This document shows, in pieces, positions 52,210 to 61,100 of a stretch of DNA of 64,000 nt (position 1 is the stretch's first letter; every line of letters starts with the position of its first letter). The stretch is from NCBI GenBank assembly GCA_900317325.1, contig ONGE01000006.1, positions 1 to 64,000 on the forward strand. The letters are read 5' to 3'. The notes beneath the pieces were generated by a model that ran no database searches, was not told the origin of the DNA, and worked only from the letters and a program-made list of their open reading frames with translations. A program made the translations under genes and the position numbers. Source of the stretch: an uncultured Prevotellaceae bacterium. GTDB lineage: Bacteria > Bacteroidota > Bacteroidia > Bacteroidales > Muribaculaceae.

Positions 52210-52365
52210 TGACGACGGGAATAACGGAGAGAACGGAGAGAACGGAGAAAACGGAAATAACTGAAATAACGGAAATAACGGGGAAAACGGAGAGAACGGA
52301 GAAAACGGAAATAACGGAGAGAACGGAAATGACGGAGATGACGGAAATAACGGGGAGAATGGGGA
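52210..52365. repeat. ACGGAGAGA/ACGGAAATA array
   Basis: About sixteen imperfect 9-bp units (AACGGAGAG, AACGGAAAT, GACGGAGAT, AACGGGGAA), the longest such array in the window, right behind the gapA terminator. Confidence 0.8.
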
Positions 52366-52490: not shown

Positions 52491-52536
52491 TAACCAAGAA
52501 ATCTTTTTTATTAACCATCTAAAACAATTTGCGATA

Positions 52537-52650
52537 ATGAAGAAATGGAAATGCGTTGTGTGTGGTTACATCCATGAGGGTGACACACCTCCCGAAGAAT
52601 GCCCGCTGTGCGGCGTTGGTCCCGAGGACTTTGAGGAAGTGACCGAGTAA
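52537..52650 (+). CDS. 37-aa rubredoxin-like electron carrier
   Basis: ATG at 52537, TAA at 52648-52650. The sequence contains both iron-binding loops: CVVCGY and CPLCG, separated by the usual [10 protein letters not shown]. It is short for a rubredoxin (normally about 52 residues), lacking part of the C-terminal end, and is almost identical in its N-terminal half to the rubredoxin domain of the rubrerythrin encoded 104 bp downstream. Probably donates electrons to the rubrerythrin. Confidence 0.8.
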
Positions 52651-52754
52651 TCGTCACGGAGTTCACCAGGTTCACACCTGCGATGAATTTTATCAACTAT
52701 TAATAATAACTACCTGTTTAACTTACTAAAAGAAAAGAATCTAACAAGACTATT

Positions 52755-53306
52755 ATGGCTAAGAAATGGATCTGCACCGTGTGCGGTTATGTACACGAGG
52801 GTGACACGCCCCCCGAGAAATGTCCGCAGTGTAAACAACCCGCCGAGAAGTTCAAGGAACTGAAGGAGGACGAGGAAGTAACCTATGCCGCCGAGCACGT
52901 TCTCGGTGTTGCCAAGGGTGTTGACCCCGAAATCCTCGCTGGACTGAAGGCACACTTCGAGGGCGAATGCTCGGAGGTGGGCATGTATCTGGCTATGTCT
53001 CGCCAGGCCGACCGCGAGGGCTATCCCGAGGTTGCTGAGGCCTTCAAGCGCTATGCCTTTGAGGAGGCTGAGCACGCCGCCAAGTTCGCCGAGCTGCTGG
53101 GCGAGGTGGTTTGGGACACCAAGACCAACCTGGAAAAACGCATGGCAGCCGAGGCTGGCGCCTGTGAGGACAAATTCCGCATCGCTAAGCTTGCCAAGGC
53201 CCAGAACCTGGATGCCATCCACGACACCGTTCACGAGATGGCTCGCGACGAGGCACGTCACGGCCAGGGCTTCACCGGCCTGTACAACCGCTTCTTCAAG
53301 AAGTAA
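52755..53306 (+). CDS. Reverse rubrerythrin
   Basis: A 183-aa peroxide-detoxifying protein. Unlike classical rubrerythrin, the rubredoxin domain is N-terminal (CTVCGY ... CPQCK, about 7-29). The diiron four-helix domain follows (about 50-180) with Glu ligands in [30 protein letters not shown] and [12 protein letters not shown]. Works as an NAD(P)H-dependent peroxidase in anaerobes. Placed after gapA and a rubredoxin, consistent with oxidative-stress defence. Confidence 0.92.
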
Positions 53307-53442
53307 GCTTATTCAAGTTCCTGAGTTTTTCTCAGGAACTTGCAGTTTAAAGGTTAGGGTTTAGAGGTTAGAGGAAATGTATCCTCGTCACCACTAAACC
53401 CTAATCTCATGCTATCACTCTATCCCCTCTCCCCTCTAAACC

Positions 53443-53476
53443 AGCAACGCCTGGGCCAAACGGCTCAGGCGTTGCT
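53443..53476 (+). terminator. Terminator of the rubrerythrin gene
   Basis: AGCAACGCCTGGGCC pairs with GGCTCAGGCGTTGCT (one G-T pair) around AAAC, then ATTTAT. It marks the chromosomal side of the mobile element; the gap before it holds GGTTAGAGG-type simple repeats. Confidence 0.85.
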
Positions 53477-53483
53477 ATTTATC

Positions 53484-53502
53484 GTACTCCCGCTGGGAGT
53501 AC
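53484..53502. other. Probable left attachment core (copy of the tRNA-Arg 3' end)
   Basis: GTACTCCCGCTGGGA is identical to 58003-58017. With four more bases it forms GTACTCCC-GCT-GGGAGTAC, a perfect triplet-loop palindrome like the others in this window, so part of the match could be a resident palindrome. Confidence 0.6.
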
Positions 53503-53615
53503 CCATTATTTAACCCCATTTTCTTTAATTCATTTCGTCTAACTTGATATTCAGTCTATTACAATAGCTAAAAGAGTTAAATAAATTAAACGAGATTAAA
53601 ATAAGTATCGTTTTT

Positions 53616-53637
53616 GTGCAACTTTTGTGCAACTTTT
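53616..53637. other. Left pair of GTGCAACTTTT sites (likely integrase arm sites)
   Basis: Two direct copies of GTGCAACTTTT start at 53616 and 53627, 11 bp apart. The same arrangement (GTGCAATTTTT at 57914 and 57925) occurs near the other end. Confidence 0.55.
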
Positions 53638-53640
53638 CAG

Positions 53641-53648
53641 TATCTTTG
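53641..53648 (+). promoter_or_regulatory. -7 box of the integrase gene
   Basis: TATCTTTG, next to the paired GTGCAAC sites, so integrase binding there could repress its own gene. Confidence 0.65.
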
Positions 53649-53669
53649 CAGCACAAAAGTAAATCAATT

Positions 53670-54953
53670 ATGGCAACTACTAAATTTATAATCGGCAAGA
53701 GAGGGGGCGATCGTCCCGAAGTTACTATCAAGTTGACAATGAATAGCAGCTTAAGAGTGCAAACCAAAGTGCCCGGCGTGCTCGTTTATCGTCAATATTG
53801 GAGTGAGGCCAAACAATGCAACGATACCACCCGCAAATTTATCAAGCCCTGGGAGGTTGAAGAAATGGCCGAAGTAAATAAGACCCTGGCCACCCTTGCC
53901 GCCGAGGTTTTAAGCAGGGCCACCGCCACCCCCGAAGAGGATATTAACAAAGAGTGGCTTGCCGCCGAGGTGGATAACATTTTGCACCCGGATAAGTACG
54001 CGCCAAAGGTGGAGCGGCCAAAGACACTAAAAGAAGCGATCGAGGCTTTTATCGAAGCAGCCCCCAATAAGGTAGTGAAGCGCAAAGGCCACCCCAACGG
54101 GGTACACATCGCGCCGCGCACAATCTTTCAATATAGGCAACTTCAAAACCAGGTACTCGCGTACCTCAAAGCCTACAACCGCGACGATATGGAGGTAATA
54201 GAACTTGACGAAGTTTTCTATAACTCATTTGTCAATTTCCTGGAAAAGCAGGGCTACAAGGTTAACACTATCGGCTACTTCATTAAGAGCCTAAAGGCCG
54301 TTATCAATTCCTTGCCCCTGGCCCAGCGCGCCACCTGCGAATTTGTGGCCCCGAAAAAGTGTGCAAAGCTGGCCGAAGAGGTGGATAACATCTATTTGAC
54401 CGAAGCCCAGCTTGAAGCCATCGCCGCCCAGCCCATCGCCGCGCACTACCTCGACCGCGTGCGCGACCAATTTATTTTGTTGTCCTGGACGGGGTGCAGA
54501 TATAGCGACCTCGACAAGCTGAACAAAAAGCACATTACCACCATGAACGGGCGCGAATATTTCAAGATCGTGCAACAAAAGACCGGGGCAAAGGTTACTA
54601 TTCCCGTTTTGGCTCCCGTGCGCGCGATACTTGAAAAGTACGGCTACAACTTGCCGCGCCCCATCGCCAACCAAAAATTTAATGAATACGTCAAAGAGGT
54701 TGCAAAGCTGGCCGGGCTCAAAGAGTGGCAACGCGTCACGGCTCACACCGCCCGCCGTTCCTTTGCGACCAATCTATATAAGCGCGATTTCCCAACCCTC
54801 ATGATTATGAGGATAACGGGCCACCAAACCGAAAAGGCATTTTTAACCTATATCAAGGTAACGGAGGATGAAAACGCCGAGCGCATGATCAAGAAATTTG
54901 AAGAGCAAGAGGCCCGCCGCCTGGCTCCAGGGACGGCAAATGTAAAACCATAA
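53670..54953 (+). CDS. Tyrosine recombinase (integrase) of the element
   Basis: A 427-aa site-specific recombinase. The N-terminal arm-binding and SAM-like core-binding domains cover about 1-220. The catalytic domain (about 240-415) has Arg277 in TGCRYSDL, Lys304 in QQKTGAK, His359 and Arg362 in AHTARRSF, His385 in TGHQ and the nucleophile Tyr394 in FLTYIKV. The start at 53670 follows the -7 box; an upstream in-frame ATG lies within the promoter. Related to Bacteroidetes integrases of small tRNA-targeted elements. Read towards the tRNA-Arg end. Confidence 0.95.
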   Translation: MATTKFIIGKRGGDRPEVTIKLTMNSSLRVQTKVPGVLVYRQYWSEAKQCNDTTRKFIKPWEVEEMAEVNKTLATLAAEVLSRATATPEEDINKEWLAAEVDNILHPDKYAPKVERPKTLKEAIEAFIEAAPNKVVKRKGHPNGVHIAPRTIFQYRQLQNQVLAYLKAYNRDDMEVIELDEVFYNSFVNFLEKQGYKVNTIGYFIKSLKAVINSLPLAQRATCEFVAPKKCAKLAEEVDNIYLTEAQLEAIAAQPIAAHYLDRVRDQFILLSWTGCRYSDLDKLNKKHITTMNGREYFKIVQQKTGAKVTIPVLAPVRAILEKYGYNLPRPIANQKFNEYVKEVAKLAGLKEWQRVTAHTARRSFATNLYKRDFPTLMIMRITGHQTEKAFLTYIKVTEDENAERMIKKFEEQEARRLAPGTANVKP

Positions 54954-54963
54954 ACAATCAAGC

Positions 54964-55158
54964 ATGATGAACGAACCGACAAACCAAAACGATGAATTGT
55001 GCCGCATTTCCGCAAAGCTGGCAGTAATTGAGCAAAAGTGCGACCTAATATTGGCGCAATTGTCAAGCCTCAAAACAAATGAGAGATTAGACGAACTGAT
55101 CAACCGCCTACAAAGCAGTGCCAGGTCAATGCGTGAAGGCAACGCCGTCGAAGAGTAA
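54964..55158 (+). CDS. 64-aa coiled-coil protein downstream of the integrase
   Basis: A short soluble protein (MMNEPTNQNDELC start) with heptad-like LAVIEQKCDLILAQLSSL and LDELINRLQSS segments. It begins 10 bp after the integrase stop and is followed by a terminator at 55177, so it shares the integrase transcript. May modulate recombination; no family recognised. Confidence 0.6.
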   Translation: MMNEPTNQNDELCRISAKLAVIEQKCDLILAQLSSLKTNERLDELINRLQSSARSMREGNAVEE

Positions 55159-55176
55159 ACACCCCAAGATTAATGA

Positions 55177-55206
55177 CAAACTACCATTTTCGGTAGTTTG
55201 TTGTTT
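55177..55206 (+). terminator. Terminator after the integrase operon
   Basis: CAAACTACC/GGTAGTTTG with a 6-nt loop, then a T-rich tract. The following gap to 55479 has AT-rich sequence without a clear gene. Confidence 0.85.
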
Positions 55207-55479
55207 TATGGCCTATTATTCAACGATTTGCGTTTGATAATTTGATTATATGGTTATTTGCGTTAAATGAGATTTCAAAAAGATAGCACAAGCAGTATTG
55301 CCACCCACTAAATTTGCACCACTATTGCGATATAGGTAGGGACGGCAAGTGTGCCGCGGGACTACTTGCTAAGTGGTCAGTGATGATGTGACTATTTTAT
55401 TTTTGCTCAAAGTCGTATCGTTATAGTCGATTTCGGTGGGCCCTTATGAGCAAAATTGAAGCCGCGCCGCTCTATCATT

Positions 55480-55785
55480 ATGGCTACAATAGCTAATCTT
55501 TTGCGCGATAAGCGCGCTAATGTGAACGTAACTTTATCGCTGGCTGATCTGCGAGAGTTTGTAACCGACCTTTTGGAGAATGGTATCGCCGCGACTCCAG
55601 CCCCGGCACCCGTCGAGGTGGAGCGATCCAGGGACTTAATGACCCGCGACGAAGTATGCGAGTACCTGGGAGTGACAAAGCCCACCTTGCACCGCTGGAA
55701 CAAGCAAGGTTTCCTTACTTGTGTAAAAGTGGGTAGCAAGGTACGCTACCGCCGTGAGGATATAGAGGCATTTGCCGCAAAGTAA
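55480..55785 (+). CDS. Excisionase-like MerR/HTH_17 DNA-binding protein
   Basis: A 101-aa protein starting at MATIANLL (55480). An N-terminal helical part leads to a C-terminal helix-turn-helix of the excisionase (HTH_17) type, MTRDEVCEYLGVTKPTLHRW ... VRYRREDIEAFAAK. In Bacteroidales elements such proteins act as recombination directionality factors. The distance from the integrase and the terminator between them mean it has its own promoter, not identified. Confidence 0.8.
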   Translation: MATIANLLRDKRANVNVTLSLADLREFVTDLLENGIAATPAPAPVEVERSRDLMTRDEVCEYLGVTKPTLHRWNKQGFLTCVKVGSKVRYRREDIEAFAAK

Positions 55786-55892
55786 AGAGCAACGCTCACG
55801 CGCTGCCCCCTTAAAAGTTTCCATCATTTGGCTGTGCAAAGATACGACATCTTTGCGATATTGGGAGCAGCCGGGGCCATTATTTCCAAACA

Positions 55893-56672
55893 ATGGACTA
55901 CGACAAAATTTATTATAATTCTCCTATTGCTATATTGCAGCAAGTGCGCACCGACAATCGCGGTAATATTCAACGTAAATCGGTAGAATTTGCTTTATTG
56001 AGTTTTATTGGTTTCGCTCTATATGGGGCTTATAGAAAAGAAATGCAACCGGGATGCGAGCCGGACGATTACGATGAAAGAGCATTTCTCAAGGTCACGG
56101 GCGAAATGGGCTTAGAGAGCCTACGTGCTGCACCCGAGGATTGGGTAAAGTGGTCTATGAGGATTTTTTGCGAGTATAAAGACAATCGGGTTATAGTGGG
56201 GGTGGATAGTGATCTACTTTTGGGCTATCTCTATAACCTGGACTATAAAAGTGATTTTGAGATTATCCAGCTTCAAGCGTTTCTTTCCATCCGCTCAATT
56301 ATTGGGGTGCATTGCTGCGCAAAGCAGATAAAATGGCTATATGTTTTATCGCGCATGGCCGGGCACGAAAAGGCCCTCAAGAGCGTTGAGGCCTTGCCGG
56401 ATTATATTGCCCGTTATAACTCCCGTCGTCTGCGAGACAAACTAATTAGAGCACTTTGCGACCGCTGGCACATGAAGTACTACGGCAAGAACCTCGGCAA
56501 AGGATCGCCGCCCTGGTTTTCGTTTGACCAAGACCTCGACCTCGAGGATCATGTGCGCCTCATAAAAGAGCGGAAAAAACGAAAGACGGGAGCCGCTGGC
56601 CCATCAAACCCGGAACCCGTCGAAATTGAGATATTAAACCCTCGCATATTTGGTAAAAAGATACTATGGTAA
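55893..56672 (+). CDS. Unknown 259-aa element protein, possible replication protein
   Basis: A soluble protein with no recognised domain. It begins MDYDKIYYNSPIAILQQ; the middle has a hydrophobic helical stretch (FEIIQLQAFLSIRSIIGVH) followed by CCAKQIKWLYVLSRMAGHEKAL, which looks like a helix-turn-helix. The C-terminal end is basic (RLIKERKKRKTG). Its stop overlaps the start of the 72-aa gene. The iteron-like repeats and AT-rich stretch lie just downstream, so a replication-initiator role is a reasonable guess, not shown by sequence. Confidence 0.6.
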   Translation: MDYDKIYYNSPIAILQQVRTDNRGNIQRKSVEFALLSFIGFALYGAYRKEMQPGCEPDDYDERAFLKVTGEMGLESLRAAPEDWVKWSMRIFCEYKDNRVIVGVDSDLLLGYLYNLDYKSDFEIIQLQAFLSIRSIIGVHCCAKQIKWLYVLSRMAGHEKALKSVEALPDYIARYNSRRLRDKLIRALCDRWHMKYYGKNLGKGSPPWFSFDQDLDLEDHVRLIKERKKRKTGAAGPSNPEPVEIEILNPRIFGKKILW

Positions 56673-56884
56673 TAGAAGAAATAACCGACAACCACCTGGC
56701 CGATTTTTGTGCCTGGTATGAGCAATTTCATGGCTGCAAGCCCGTCGAAGCTTCGGTAATATCTACTTGTATTTGTGGCTACTTCGGTACCTATTCAAAA
56801 GCGGCTGACAAGTTGCTGGCACGCTGCAAACGTCTCAAGCTATTGGACGTGGCCGACGGCATTGCGATAATGCGGAGCCCATGA
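56666..56884 (+). CDS. 72-aa protein coupled to the 259-aa gene
   Basis: ATG overlaps the stop of the preceding gene (ATGGTAATAG), so translation is coupled. The sequence MVIEEITDNHLADFCAWYEQ begins an acidic N-terminus, and STCICGYFGTYSKAADKLLA suggests a small winged helix-like DNA-binding fold. No family recognised. Immediately followed by the iteron-like repeats. Confidence 0.6.
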   Translation: MVIEEITDNHLADFCAWYEQFHGCKPVEASVISTCICGYFGTYSKAADKLLARCKRLKLLDVADGIAIMRSP

Positions 56885-56947
56885 CCTGGGACTGCTAAAG
56901 AACCAATCGACCCCTCGCTGGTATTGAGGCCATTTGAGGGGTTATTT

Positions 56948-57025
56948 TGTACACCTATAATAAGTTGTACACCTATAATAACGGCACTAAATGTACATCT
57001 AAAAATGTACACCTAAATGTGCACC
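56948..57025. repeat. Five iteron-like TGTACACC repeats
   Basis: TGTACACCTATAATAA at 56948 and 56966 (18 bp apart), TGTACATCTAAAAA at 56992, TGTACACCTAAA at 57006 and TGTGCACC at 57018. All have the same orientation. An AT-rich block (about 57030-57080) follows, as in plasmid origins. Confidence 0.75.
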
Positions 57026-57314
57026 AATAGAAAGATATAGATAATAAGCTTAATATATAATAATCTTAATCTCTAATAAGGTGCCCATTGCGCGCGCGTA
57101 CGCGTTATTAAAGGGGTACTTTTTAAGCCCGTCCCCTGGGCTCGCGGTGCTCGCTATTCGCTGCGCTCATGTGCCCGCTAACGCGGGGTGATGTTTAACG
57201 GCTGCGCCGTTGTGTTTGGTGAAAGCTTCGGGAGTGCTGGATTACTCAAAGAGCCGGGGAGCCGCGACGCGGTACCGCCCCCGTCCGCGTCGAATACCTT
57301 CGGCAAGTTACAAG
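57026..57314. other. AT-rich block and GC-rich palindromes, no clear gene
   Basis: 57030-57080 is very AT-rich. Then come alternating GC/CG (near 57095) and the palindromes CCCGC-TAAC-GCGGG (57175-57188), AACGGC-TGC-GCCGTT (57197-57211) and CCGCG-A-CGCGG at about 57262-57272. The last lies in a 20-bp sequence, GGGAGCCGCGACGCGGTACC (57257-57276), repeated exactly at 57871-57890. Confidence 0.55.
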
Positions 57315-57480
57315 GGCAAGTTTAGGGCGAGGGATGCAGCGAAAACAAGGTCAATTTTAGGTCAAGGGCTACACCAAGTTTGCAACGAGGTTTGAACCGA
57401 AAAACAAGGCTACGATTAGGCTAAGGTATGAGACCAAAGAGGGGCAAGGTTAGGGCAAGGGTTGAGCCAAAATAAACCCT
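57315..57480. repeat. Degenerate ~35-bp direct repeats
   Basis: Four units starting at 57315, 57349, 57408 and 57443, plus a partial one at 57389, follow the pattern GGCAAnnTTAGGGCAAGGG then nTGAGnCnAAAA. Spacing is about 34-35 bp between the better pairs. The rest to 57960 contains GTTTACGGGGA twice near 57530 and several GC-rich palindromes; no convincing gene. Confidence 0.6.
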
Positions 57481-57913
57481 AAGTTTACCCTAATGTTTGA
57501 GGCCCCAGGACTACAATATTACTGCAAGGGTTTACGGGGAGTTTACGGGGAGGGAAGCGGCGATAACAACCCAGAGGTTACCCATAGGAACAACCGCAAG
57601 TTTACCACAAGGGAGCCAACGAAAAACGACACCGCAATAGCAGCATCCGAAACAGTGCCAAAAAGTGGCACAAAAAGCCCACCGCTGCCCCAGGACGCGA
57701 GAAAACCGCCGCGCCGTGTAGTTTATCATTTTGGCATGATGAAACGCCCAGCGGCCAATTATGGGGGTTTTGTTCCTGGCACCCTCAGCCGGGTGAAATG
57801 GGATAAACCGAGAACCCCATAAGAAGAGTTTGCCGCACCCATGACCGCCCAGGGGCTTGAACGCGTCCCAGGGAGCCGCGACGCGGTACCCAAAGGGAGC
57901 AAGGGTAAACAAA

Positions 57914-57935
57914 GTGCAATTTTTGTGCAATTTTT
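57914..57935. other. Right pair of GTGCAATTTTT sites (likely integrase arm sites)
   Basis: GTGCAATTTTT starts at 57914 and 57925, the same 11-bp spacing and orientation as the left pair near the integrase, and about 70 bp inside the tRNA end. Confidence 0.55.
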
Positions 57936-58003
57936 TCAATAATTAGTAAGTATAAAATAATTGCTAACCGCCTAACAAATAAGCGATTAGCAAAATTTAA
58001 TTG

Positions 58004-58075
58004 TACTCCCGCTGGGAATCGAACCCAAATCTAAGGTTTAGGAAACCTCCATTCTATCCATTGAACTACAGGAGC
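58004..58075 (-). tRNA. tRNA-Arg (CCT), integration target
   Basis: A cloverleaf on the minus strand: acceptor GCTCCTG/CGGGAGT, anticodon stem GAGGT/ACCTT with loop TTCCTAA (anticodon CCT), T-arm around GGGTTCGATTCCC. CCA not encoded. Its last 14 bases lie in the 15-bp repeat shared with 53484-53498, so the element's insertion leaves an intact tRNA. Confidence 0.92.
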
Positions 58076-58083
58076 ATCCAACG

Positions 58084-58123
58084 TGCCGGCTGGCATAAGG
58101 CTAGGCGCTGTGGCCAGCCGGCA
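58084..58123. terminator. Hairpin between secDF and tRNA-Arg
   Basis: TGCCGGCTGGC pairs perfectly with GCCAGCCGGCA around an 18-nt loop. Lies just after the secDF stop on the minus strand and before the tRNA. Confidence 0.65.
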
Positions 58124-58144
58124 GATGGTATTTTCGGTCAAGAA

Positions 58145-61100
58145 TTACTTGACAGCTGTTGCAAGAGCAGCCTCCTTCTTGTCGCTGCGACGGGCAATCC
58201 AGTAAGCCACGGGCGAAGCGATGAACAGTGAGGAGCAGGTACCGATGATGACACCGAGGATCATCGCGAAGATGAAGCTGCGGATTGAAGCACCACCGAA
58301 GATCAACATGATGATGAGCACGAGCAAGGTCGTGATAGAGGTCATCATGGTACGTGACAGCGTGCTGCACAGGGCCTTGTTGAAGGTGGTGTACAGACTC
58401 TGCTTGGGATAGAGCGAGCGGTACTCACGCACACGGTCGAATACAACCACGGTATCGTTCACCTGATAACCGATAACGGTCAGGATAGCGGCGATGAAGG
58501 TCTGGTCGATCTCCATGGAGAAGGGCAGCAGGCCGTGCAGGTTGTAGAATCCGATAACCATGAAAGTGGTGAATGCTACTGCAGCCAAGGCACCGATAGA
58601 GAAGGCGATGTTGCGGAAGCGGAACAGGATGTACAGTGCCATTGCGATCAATGAGAACAGCACAGCCCAAACGGCCTCACGGGTCATATCGCTAGCGATG
58701 CTCGGGCCGACGGTCTCGCTGGAGACAACACCGACGCTCTCGTTAGACATGCTGAAGTCTTCCTTGGTCATGTTGCCGAGGTCACTCTTCAGGCCCTCAT
58801 AGAGCTTACCCATGATCTCGTCGTCAACACCCTCGGCATTGTCCTCGATCTTGTAGTTGGTCGAGATGCGCACCTTGGTGTCGTTGTCGATGGTGATGAC
58901 AGAGGTGGTAGCACCGGGGAACTGGTTTTCGAGCTGTGACTCGAGCGCCTGGGTTGAAACGGGATGATCAAATTGTACAACGAAGTTGCGACCACCCGAG
59001 AAGTCAATACCACGCTGGAGACCACGAAGGCCGAACAACAGACCCATCACGACGATGAATGCCAGAACGAAGATCGAGGTCTTCTTGGCAGCGCCCATGA
59101 AGTTGAACGAAACGTTCTCCATGAGGTTGCGGGTGAGCGGGGTGTTGAAGGTCATCTTGTCGAAGGTGCCCTTGTTGACGAAGTGCTCCATCACGAGGCG
59201 CGTAGCAAACACAGCGGTGAAGAACGAGCAGCAGATACCGATCACCAGTGTAACGGCAAAACCGCGGATGGGACCCGAGCCGAGCAGGATCAGGATGATA
59301 CCGGTGATGATGGTGGTCAAGTTGGAGTCAAAGATGGCCGAGAAGGCATTCTTGTAACCATCGCTGACGGCAGCCTTGAGGCCCTTACCGGCACGCAATT
59401 CCTCCTTACAACGCTCGAAAATCAGCACGTTGGCGTCCACTGCCATACCGAGGGTGAGCACGATACCGGCGATACCCGGCAGGGTGAGCACGCTCTGGAA
59501 CGAAGCGAGGATACCCATGGTGAAGAACAGGTTGAGAATCAGACCGAGGTTGGCAATCGAACCAGCCTGCCAGCCATAAGCACACCACATGAAGCACATC
59601 AGGACGATGAGCGCGATGATGAATGACCAGAAACCCTTCTCGATGGATTCCTTACCCAGCGACGGGCCGATCACGCTTTCACTAGCAACATTGACACGTG
59701 CCACCATCTTACCAGACTCGAGCACGTTTGCAAGGTCGTTAGCCTCCTCGAGGGTGAATTTACCGCTGATCTGCGAGCGGCCACCATCGATCTGGCTGTT
59801 CACGTTGGGGAACGAGTAAACCTGATCGTCAAGGACGATGGCGATAGCCTTACCGATGTTCTGACCGGTGATGCGGCTCCAGTTACGGGCGCCCTCATCG
59901 TTCATGGTCATCGATACGACCTGACCCTGCAGGTTGTCGAACTCGCTGGTAGCACGGGTCACAACGTCACCGTTGAGGACGGGCTGACCATTGACGGTGC
60001 GCAGAGCAACGAGCTGGAAAGCCTCGTGGCCACCCTGCATCTTCTCGGGCTTAACGGTCCAAGCCAGCTTCAGGTCGGCGGGCAGGATGGTCTTGGCCAG
60101 ATCGGAACGGATGATGGCATTTACCCTGGCAGTGTCGCCAGCGCTCACATAACCCACAACGGGTGAGCTGCCAGCAGCACCGAGCATAGCTTCAAAGCCG
60201 GTGAGCTGAGCGAGTGTGAGGGCTTCTTCCTTGGCGGGCTGGGTCTTAGCCTTAGCGGCATCGGCCTTGGCCTGCTCGGCCTTAGCAGCAGAGTCGGCCT
60301 TAGCGTCCTGAGCAGGAGCTGCAGCCTCATCGGCAGCGGGCTGCTCGGCCTGAGCTTCGGCAGCAGCGGTCGTCTTGTTGGCCTGAGCCTGGTCGCTGAG
60401 CTGACGGAGCGGCGTAGCGATATCGGCAAGCGTATAGGTCTCGTAGAACTCCAGGTTGGCAGCGCCCTGCAACAGTTTGCGCACGCGCTCGGGTTCCTTC
60501 ACACCCGGGAGCTCGAGCAGGATACGACCTGTGCTCTGGAGCTTCTGGATATTGGGTTGAACGACACCGAAGCGGTCGATACGGTTACGGAGCACCTTAT
60601 AGGAATTGTCAACCATGCTGTTGACCTCATCCTTGAGGATGTTCTGCACTTCACCTTCGGAAGCGTTGGGCTTTTCTTTGATTTTCGGGATATTGCGGAA
60701 AATCTGTGCCAAGTTGCCCTCGGGTGCGAGTTTCTTGTACTCCTTGCAGAAGGAGCCCACGAAGTCGTCCTGAGCGGTCTGGTTCTTGAGCACATTGTCA
60801 ATAGCCTGGTTAAACTTCTTGTCGGGATTGTTGTTCGCAAGAGCGCGCAAGATGTCGGGAACGGAGATTTGCAGAATCACGTTCATACCACCTTTCAAGT
60901 CGAGGCCGAGGCCCAACTCTTTCTCACGAACCTGTTGGAAAGTGTAGTAATTAAGGTACACCTTCTCTTTAGCAAGAGAGTCCAGATACTCATTCAAAGC
61001 GGTCTTGTACTTCTCGTTGCTGGTGTCGGCGCTCTTAATGCCGGCAACAGTGAGAGCTTTCTGCTCAGCCTTTCTCAGATGGTGAGTGCTCACGATCGAG

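Follow-up and report, generated by a model that had tools for sequence, protein, structure and literature searches.

The 64,000-nucleotide stretch analysed here (the window: positions 1 to 64,000 of contig ONGE01000006.1, assembly GCA_900317325.1, from an uncultured member of the Muribaculaceae) carries at 53484..58017 an element of 4,534 bp, which is flanked by two 15-bp attachment (att) copies and encodes an integrase, an excisionase-like protein and a predicted replication initiator (Table 1). The 15-mer GTACTCCCGCTGGGA has two exact occurrences in the window, at 53484-53498 and 58003-58017, against a chance expectation of 0.09 matches per window at up to two mismatches; the right copy lies inside the tRNA-Arg(CCT) gene on the minus strand and constitutes its 3' end, this tRNA being the only Rfam match in 52500-59000. 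The G+C content of the element (47.7%) is modestly lower than that of its 4-kb flanks (51.7%) and of the window (54.0%). A preliminary description of this locus had noted the repeat of the tRNA 3' end 4.5 kb away, the lower G+C, a complete tyrosine recombinase and an excisionase-like protein, and each of these was recovered.

The integrase is encoded by an uninterrupted ORF and retains R, HTARR, GHQ and Y motifs, which we take to be its catalytic residues, while the excisionase-like protein belongs to the HTH_17 type. The 259-aa protein (p259) and the 72-aa protein, whose ORF overlaps the 3' end of the p259 ORF by 7 nt, had been described as matching nothing recognisable, and indeed neither has a match above chance in Pfam, PHROGs or NCBIfam (the best E-values of these scans being 0.11, 0.13 and 0.23, and 0.037 for the 72-aa protein). 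A 109-aa ORF at 57493-57822 likewise has no match in these three collections, and ten further ORFs of the element have none in Pfam. Among the ORFs scanned, which amount to 16 of the 30 of at least 40 aa inside the element, none matches a relaxase or mobilisation family of Pfam, in keeping with the earlier statement that no conjugation or mobilisation gene is recognisable, and a self-mobilisable element was rejected on this ground. Nor was any phage structural or lytic gene matched in these ORFs, or any capsid, terminase or relaxase gene of the element's own recognised. The sole PADLOC match is mad1, a generic HTH. The element seems to carry only the functions needed to insert, excise and copy itself.

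Table 1. Features of the element and its immediate surroundings in window coordinates
Feature	Position	Strand	Basis or remark
Terminator-like hairpin just outside left att	53443..53476	+	Inferred displaced host hairpin of the tRNA gene
Left (displaced) 15-bp att copy	53484..53498	.	Exact match to tRNA 3' end
Tandem GTGCAACTTTT repeats, candidate integrase arm sites	53612..53637	.	Repeat analysis
Tyrosine recombinase (integrase), 427 aa	53670..54953	+	PF00589 E 6.7e-14, PF13102; tree
64-aa protein adjoining int, no family	54964..55158	+	ORF list; Pfam, PHROGs, NCBIfam scans
HTH_17 excisionase/AlpA-like protein, 101 aa	55480..55785	+	PF12728 E 9.9e-14
p259, predicted replication initiator, 259 aa, winged helix, RepE-like	55893..56672	+	Predicted fold, iteron-like repeats, homologues
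72-aa protein recurring in related islands (52-68% identity)	56666..56884	+	Homology search
Iteron-like TGTACACCTA repeats	56947..57017	.	3' of the 259- and 72-aa genes
AT-rich stretch, candidate unwinding site	57037..57080	.	After the iteron-like repeats
Conserved 79-position GC-rich block, two short hairpins	57138..57214	+	Sequence comparison, profile searches
Seven degenerate 36-nt purine-rich direct repeats	57310..57625	.	Non-coding part of element, family D1
GTGCAATTTTT repeats, candidate right arm sites	57914..57935	.	Repeat analysis
Element-borne terminator-like hairpin behind the tRNA gene	57961..57993	-	Same-kind hairpins in L016, L024, L025, L033 by eye
tRNA-Arg(CCT), intact	58003..58075	-	Ends in the right att copy (15 bases)

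A query made of the tRNA and its secDF flank matched 100 of 101 genus genomes, that of the window being one of the 101, and 30 loci were listed. Besides the window, these comprise nine in which a rubrerythrin gene adjoins the tRNA, six with other islands between rubrerythrin and tRNA (L041, L042, L043, L063, L064 and L067) and 14 with other neighbours or contig ends, which were not classed for occupancy. Eight of the nine rubrerythrin-adjacent loci contain no island, seven of them having one att-like copy. In the eighth, L035, a second, inverted 12-nt att-like copy is present around position 1430, some 70 bp away from the one in tRNA-Arg. The ninth, L024 (genome G091), has about 135 bp and no island genes between rubrerythrin and the att copy; by eye this stretch includes, next to the att copy, an arm and a hairpin resembling those with which the window element ends on the right, and it seems to be a scar where a relative of that element has decayed. 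The best-matching genome, G015, is identical to the window in 379 of 398 columns of the right flank and 639 of 900 of the left, where its intergenic stretch differs in length, and it has no match to p259. The element is inserted as a discrete unit in tRNA-Arg(CCT), and the same site is island-free in close relatives; since such island-free sites exist, integration at the tRNA 3' end, as originally proposed together with a search of sister genomes for an empty site, is supported. By eye, hairpins stand at island-free sites in the place matching 53443..53476, and the hairpin adjoining the tRNA at those sites has its counterpart to the left of the window's left att copy. Within the element, the arm-type repeats at 53612 and 57920 have an inverted partner, AAAAAGTGGCACAAAAA, at 57660-57676, which is possibly a further integrase or excisionase site. 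Outside it, a tandem array with a 9/18-bp unit (ATAACGGAG) lies at 52215-52353, upstream of the rubrerythrin gene.

The preliminary description had treated p259 and the 72-aa protein as cargo, which is probably wrong. The winged-helix model of p259 has the plasmid initiator RepE, a two-winged-helix protein, as its best match, at a modest Z-score, with the predicted fold aligning across residues 3-214, and iteron-like repeats follow the p259-type gene in seven of seven genus islands. Among more distant homologues, one (L091, 6746-8458) fuses a BT4734-like N-terminal domain to a p259-type C-terminal domain and another adjoins a DnaG/Toprim gene. On the strength of the RepE-like model, the repeats behind the gene and the context of its homologues, a cargo role was rejected, and p259 is probably a replication initiator whose gene is followed by an iteron-like origin. 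Clear iteron-like repeats, however, accompany only two of 12 order-level homologues; the window element has a single repeat set, on one side of the AT-rich stretch, and both are located 3' of the p259 gene and of that for the 72-aa protein. In contrast to the RepE/RepA (Rep_3) initiators, from which the 3' position of the repeats also sets it apart, p259 has no match to PF01051, which is also unmatched throughout the host assembly (G000). A sequence search of solved structures gave one chance match (E 0.35), and Foldseek against PDB and BFVD returned nothing at E <= 0.001, with RepE not among the 50 PDB matches listed. No relatives were recovered by protein searches of the plasmid and phage collections, p259 having no match in 72,556 plasmid records, nor from genome_contigs or viral_contigs. 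A single-sequence fold of the homologue from G013 was discarded because of its pLDDT of 38. The 72-aa protein has matches in five of the 101 genus genomes, the window's own included, and the islands that hold its four other copies also have int, xis and either DUF3987-type or p259 genes; in L065 the homologue adjoins a 108-aa protein and the large terminase subunit (TerL).

Behind the iteron-like repeats and the AT-rich stretch sits the GC-rich block, which is 84% identical to blocks in islands of G013 and G078, while p259 of the window shares 25-31% identity with its counterparts there; the block is far more conserved than the proteins of the islands. Within 56885-57980 it is the only segment to match other genus genomes at E <= 0.001, apart from the right-arm region, which matches G013 C79 and G055. 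A 23-mer from the block, allowing up to three mismatches, was found in three of the 101 genus genomes, namely in the islands of G013, G078 and the window, while the reversed control pattern gave one match; a profile search of 30 sources again recovered only the same three, and the profile matched two of 397 sampled genomes of the family. For locus L105, the comparison covered the element, the query proteins and the block only. The exact pattern occurs in two genome_contigs records, those with the G013 and G078 islands (Muribaculaceae bacterium Tb.RUG.404 and uncultured Bacteroidales RUG13250), and has no match in the viral contigs; blastn found no match in the phage or plasmid collection. All three block-bearing islands combine the window-type integrase group with p259. 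A role as RNA is not supported, because on both strands the block folds no better than shuffled sequences (z -0.04 to -1.70). It may belong to the origin or serve as a site for packaging or for mobilisation (oriT).

Comparison of 15 islands of the genus, including that of the window, places the element in a wider setting. Exact repeats of a tRNA 3' end of 13-23 nt (the longest repeat being taken, with no shuffle control) flank 14 of them, L043 being the exception; these 14 span from 4,534 bp, in the window, to 7,643 bp, and their targets are tRNA-Arg, Lys, Leu and Met genes. An integrase tree puts the window element in a starred set (99/98) of seven islands, whose other members are three tRNA-Arg and one tRNA-Met islands with a DUF3987-type gene and two tRNA-Lys islands with p259. 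The replication gene within this group is therefore either p259 or DUF3987; a label test on the tree required two changes, with which one origin is still compatible. Four rows of the tree belong to no group, including G058 and G048, which both have DUF3987-like genes. DUF3987 was identified by Pfam in L043 and elsewhere by similarity to the L043 protein.

Terminase subunits are matched in four of the 14 related islands, TerS in L052 and L063 and TerL in L065 and L067. In L067 TerL directly follows a DUF5681-like protein above the Pfam cut-off, and the 108-aa protein preceding TerL in L065 has the same PHROG matches. DUF5681-like proteins below the cut-off are found in L006 and L007, both of which also carry RusA; that of L006 matches two of 50,697 phage records, in both under genes called hypothetical. 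As the proteins scanned, which do not represent every ORF, include no capsid gene and the islands are small, the related islands appear to lack capsid genes. Some of the relatives look like parasites of bacterial viruses. The islands at L067 510-7950 and L065 5218-12860, with int, xis, DUF3987-like and TerL genes, are, by gene content, candidates for terminase-carrying satellites of this Bacteroidales genus. A glycine-rich 273-aa ORF lies inside a further island, at L007 6409-7230.

Most of what is known about phage satellites comes from Staphylococcus, Enterobacterales and Vibrio. The satellite families named in the accessible portion of PMC11389934 include none from Bacteroidota, and a partial literature search found no report of such islands in Muribaculaceae. 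The closest parallels in organisation are with PICMI and PICI. The sections available of PMC10803314 describe PICMI115 (six genes, 6,110 bp) as the smallest satellite whose activity has been characterised, and the model of the family requires, besides an integrase and AlpA, Fis and a primase of the DUF3987 or DUF5906 type; as described there, these elements share with ours a very small size, the order int, small gene, AlpA/HTH_17 gene and replication gene, and the lack of a terS homologue and of capsid-remodelling genes. The window element matches the integrase (PF00589) and AlpA (PF05930 or PF12728, here the latter) models of PICMI, but in place of a DUF3987 or DUF5906 primase it has the RepE-like protein, it is inserted in tRNA-Arg rather than at fis, and its host is a member of the Bacteroidales instead of the Vibrionaceae. 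As it has neither such a primase nor the fis target, it is not a PICMI. PICIs, as far as the available text of PMC6092414 describes them, resemble it in having int, xis and a rep gene, here a predicted one, with an iteron origin behind the latter, here iteron-like repeats, and in their lack of structural genes, which extends here to lytic genes, and some of them carry terS, as do some relatives of the window element. They are, however, larger (about 12-15 kb). Their integrase, replication module and master regulator come in a conserved order, and in the window element no master repressor was recognised beside int, the xis-like gene and the predicted rep; the iteron-like repeats, moreover, flank the AT-rich stretch on one side only. 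Small mobilisable Bacteroides transposons of the Tn5520 and NBU type likewise have a tyrosine integrase, a length of a few kb and a Bacteroidota host. They carry a mobilisation protein, which was not found in the scanned ORFs of the window element, just as these lack the relaxase of an integrative mobilisable element.

Of the three possibilities offered by the preliminary description, a minimal integrative plasmid, a satellite or a relic, the satellite is best supported, and the relic is unsupported in view of uninterrupted genes and two att copies that do not differ. On balance, the element is probably an intact, very small, helper-dependent island resembling a phage satellite, with an int-xis-rep-ori organisation. 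The integrase would recombine the two att copies, aided in excision by the HTH_17 protein; p259 would then bind the iteron-like repeats and open the AT-rich stretch, from which theta-type replication might start, its enzymes being supplied by the host or a helper. A helper phage would package the circular or concatemeric DNA, possibly by way of the conserved block, such packaging being proposed because no capsid, terminase or relaxase gene of the element's own was recognised; it is on this step that we infer helper dependence. In the host assembly there is one terminase-like match, on C18, and a second match to a terminase model, on C29, that is PhoH-like by eye; the terminase family model used also matches in 11 of 14 control genomes, and no clear prophage was seen in the two 20-kb stretches listed.

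A self-sufficient integrative plasmid, in which the integrase is joined to a RepE-like replicon that spreads by natural uptake, generalised transduction or vesicles with no specific helper, would explain why the recognisable functions are confined to integration and replication, and would suit the RepE-like model and its repeats; the terminase subunits matched in four related islands and the lack of matches to p259 in plasmid records make it rather unlikely. We give little credence to an oriT-only integrative mobilisable element, which would excise, replicate and offer an oriT, perhaps the block, to the relaxase of a conjugative helper. The missing relaxase and a block with two hairpins that outstrips the proteins in conservation are what such an element might show, but the block is confined to three islands in the 101 genomes and is absent from the plasmid collection, some relatives carry terminase genes while no mobilisation gene occurs among the scanned island proteins, and CTnDOT-type TraG (TIGR03783) has no match in the host assembly, in a search in which no control genome passed the cut-off and which thus had no positive control. 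It is quite improbable that the element derives from a larger (5-8 kb) island through loss of the packaging genes and is now decaying and immobile: it is the smallest of the 14 measured islands, with 39% of its length outside the five likely genes, and L024 seems to preserve the scar of a related island, yet these five genes are open, the att copies are identical, arm-type repeats persist at both ends and the block is conserved.

If the satellite-like interpretation is right, the element would be analogous to PICI and PICMI, with a different initiator and target. More tentatively, it might represent the smallest member found here of an undescribed, tRNA-targeting satellite lineage of the Bacteroidota, which has shed terminase, primase and capsid genes while keeping just an integrase, an excisionase, an initiator from a new RepE-like family and, acting in cis, the one 79-nt block through which a helper phage packages it. 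A tRNA gene that serves several different islands of a Bacteroidales genus as a hot spot, some of these islands bearing terminases, would extend satellite biology to a major gut lineage, and the element would offer a near-minimal island for asking what satellites must encode.
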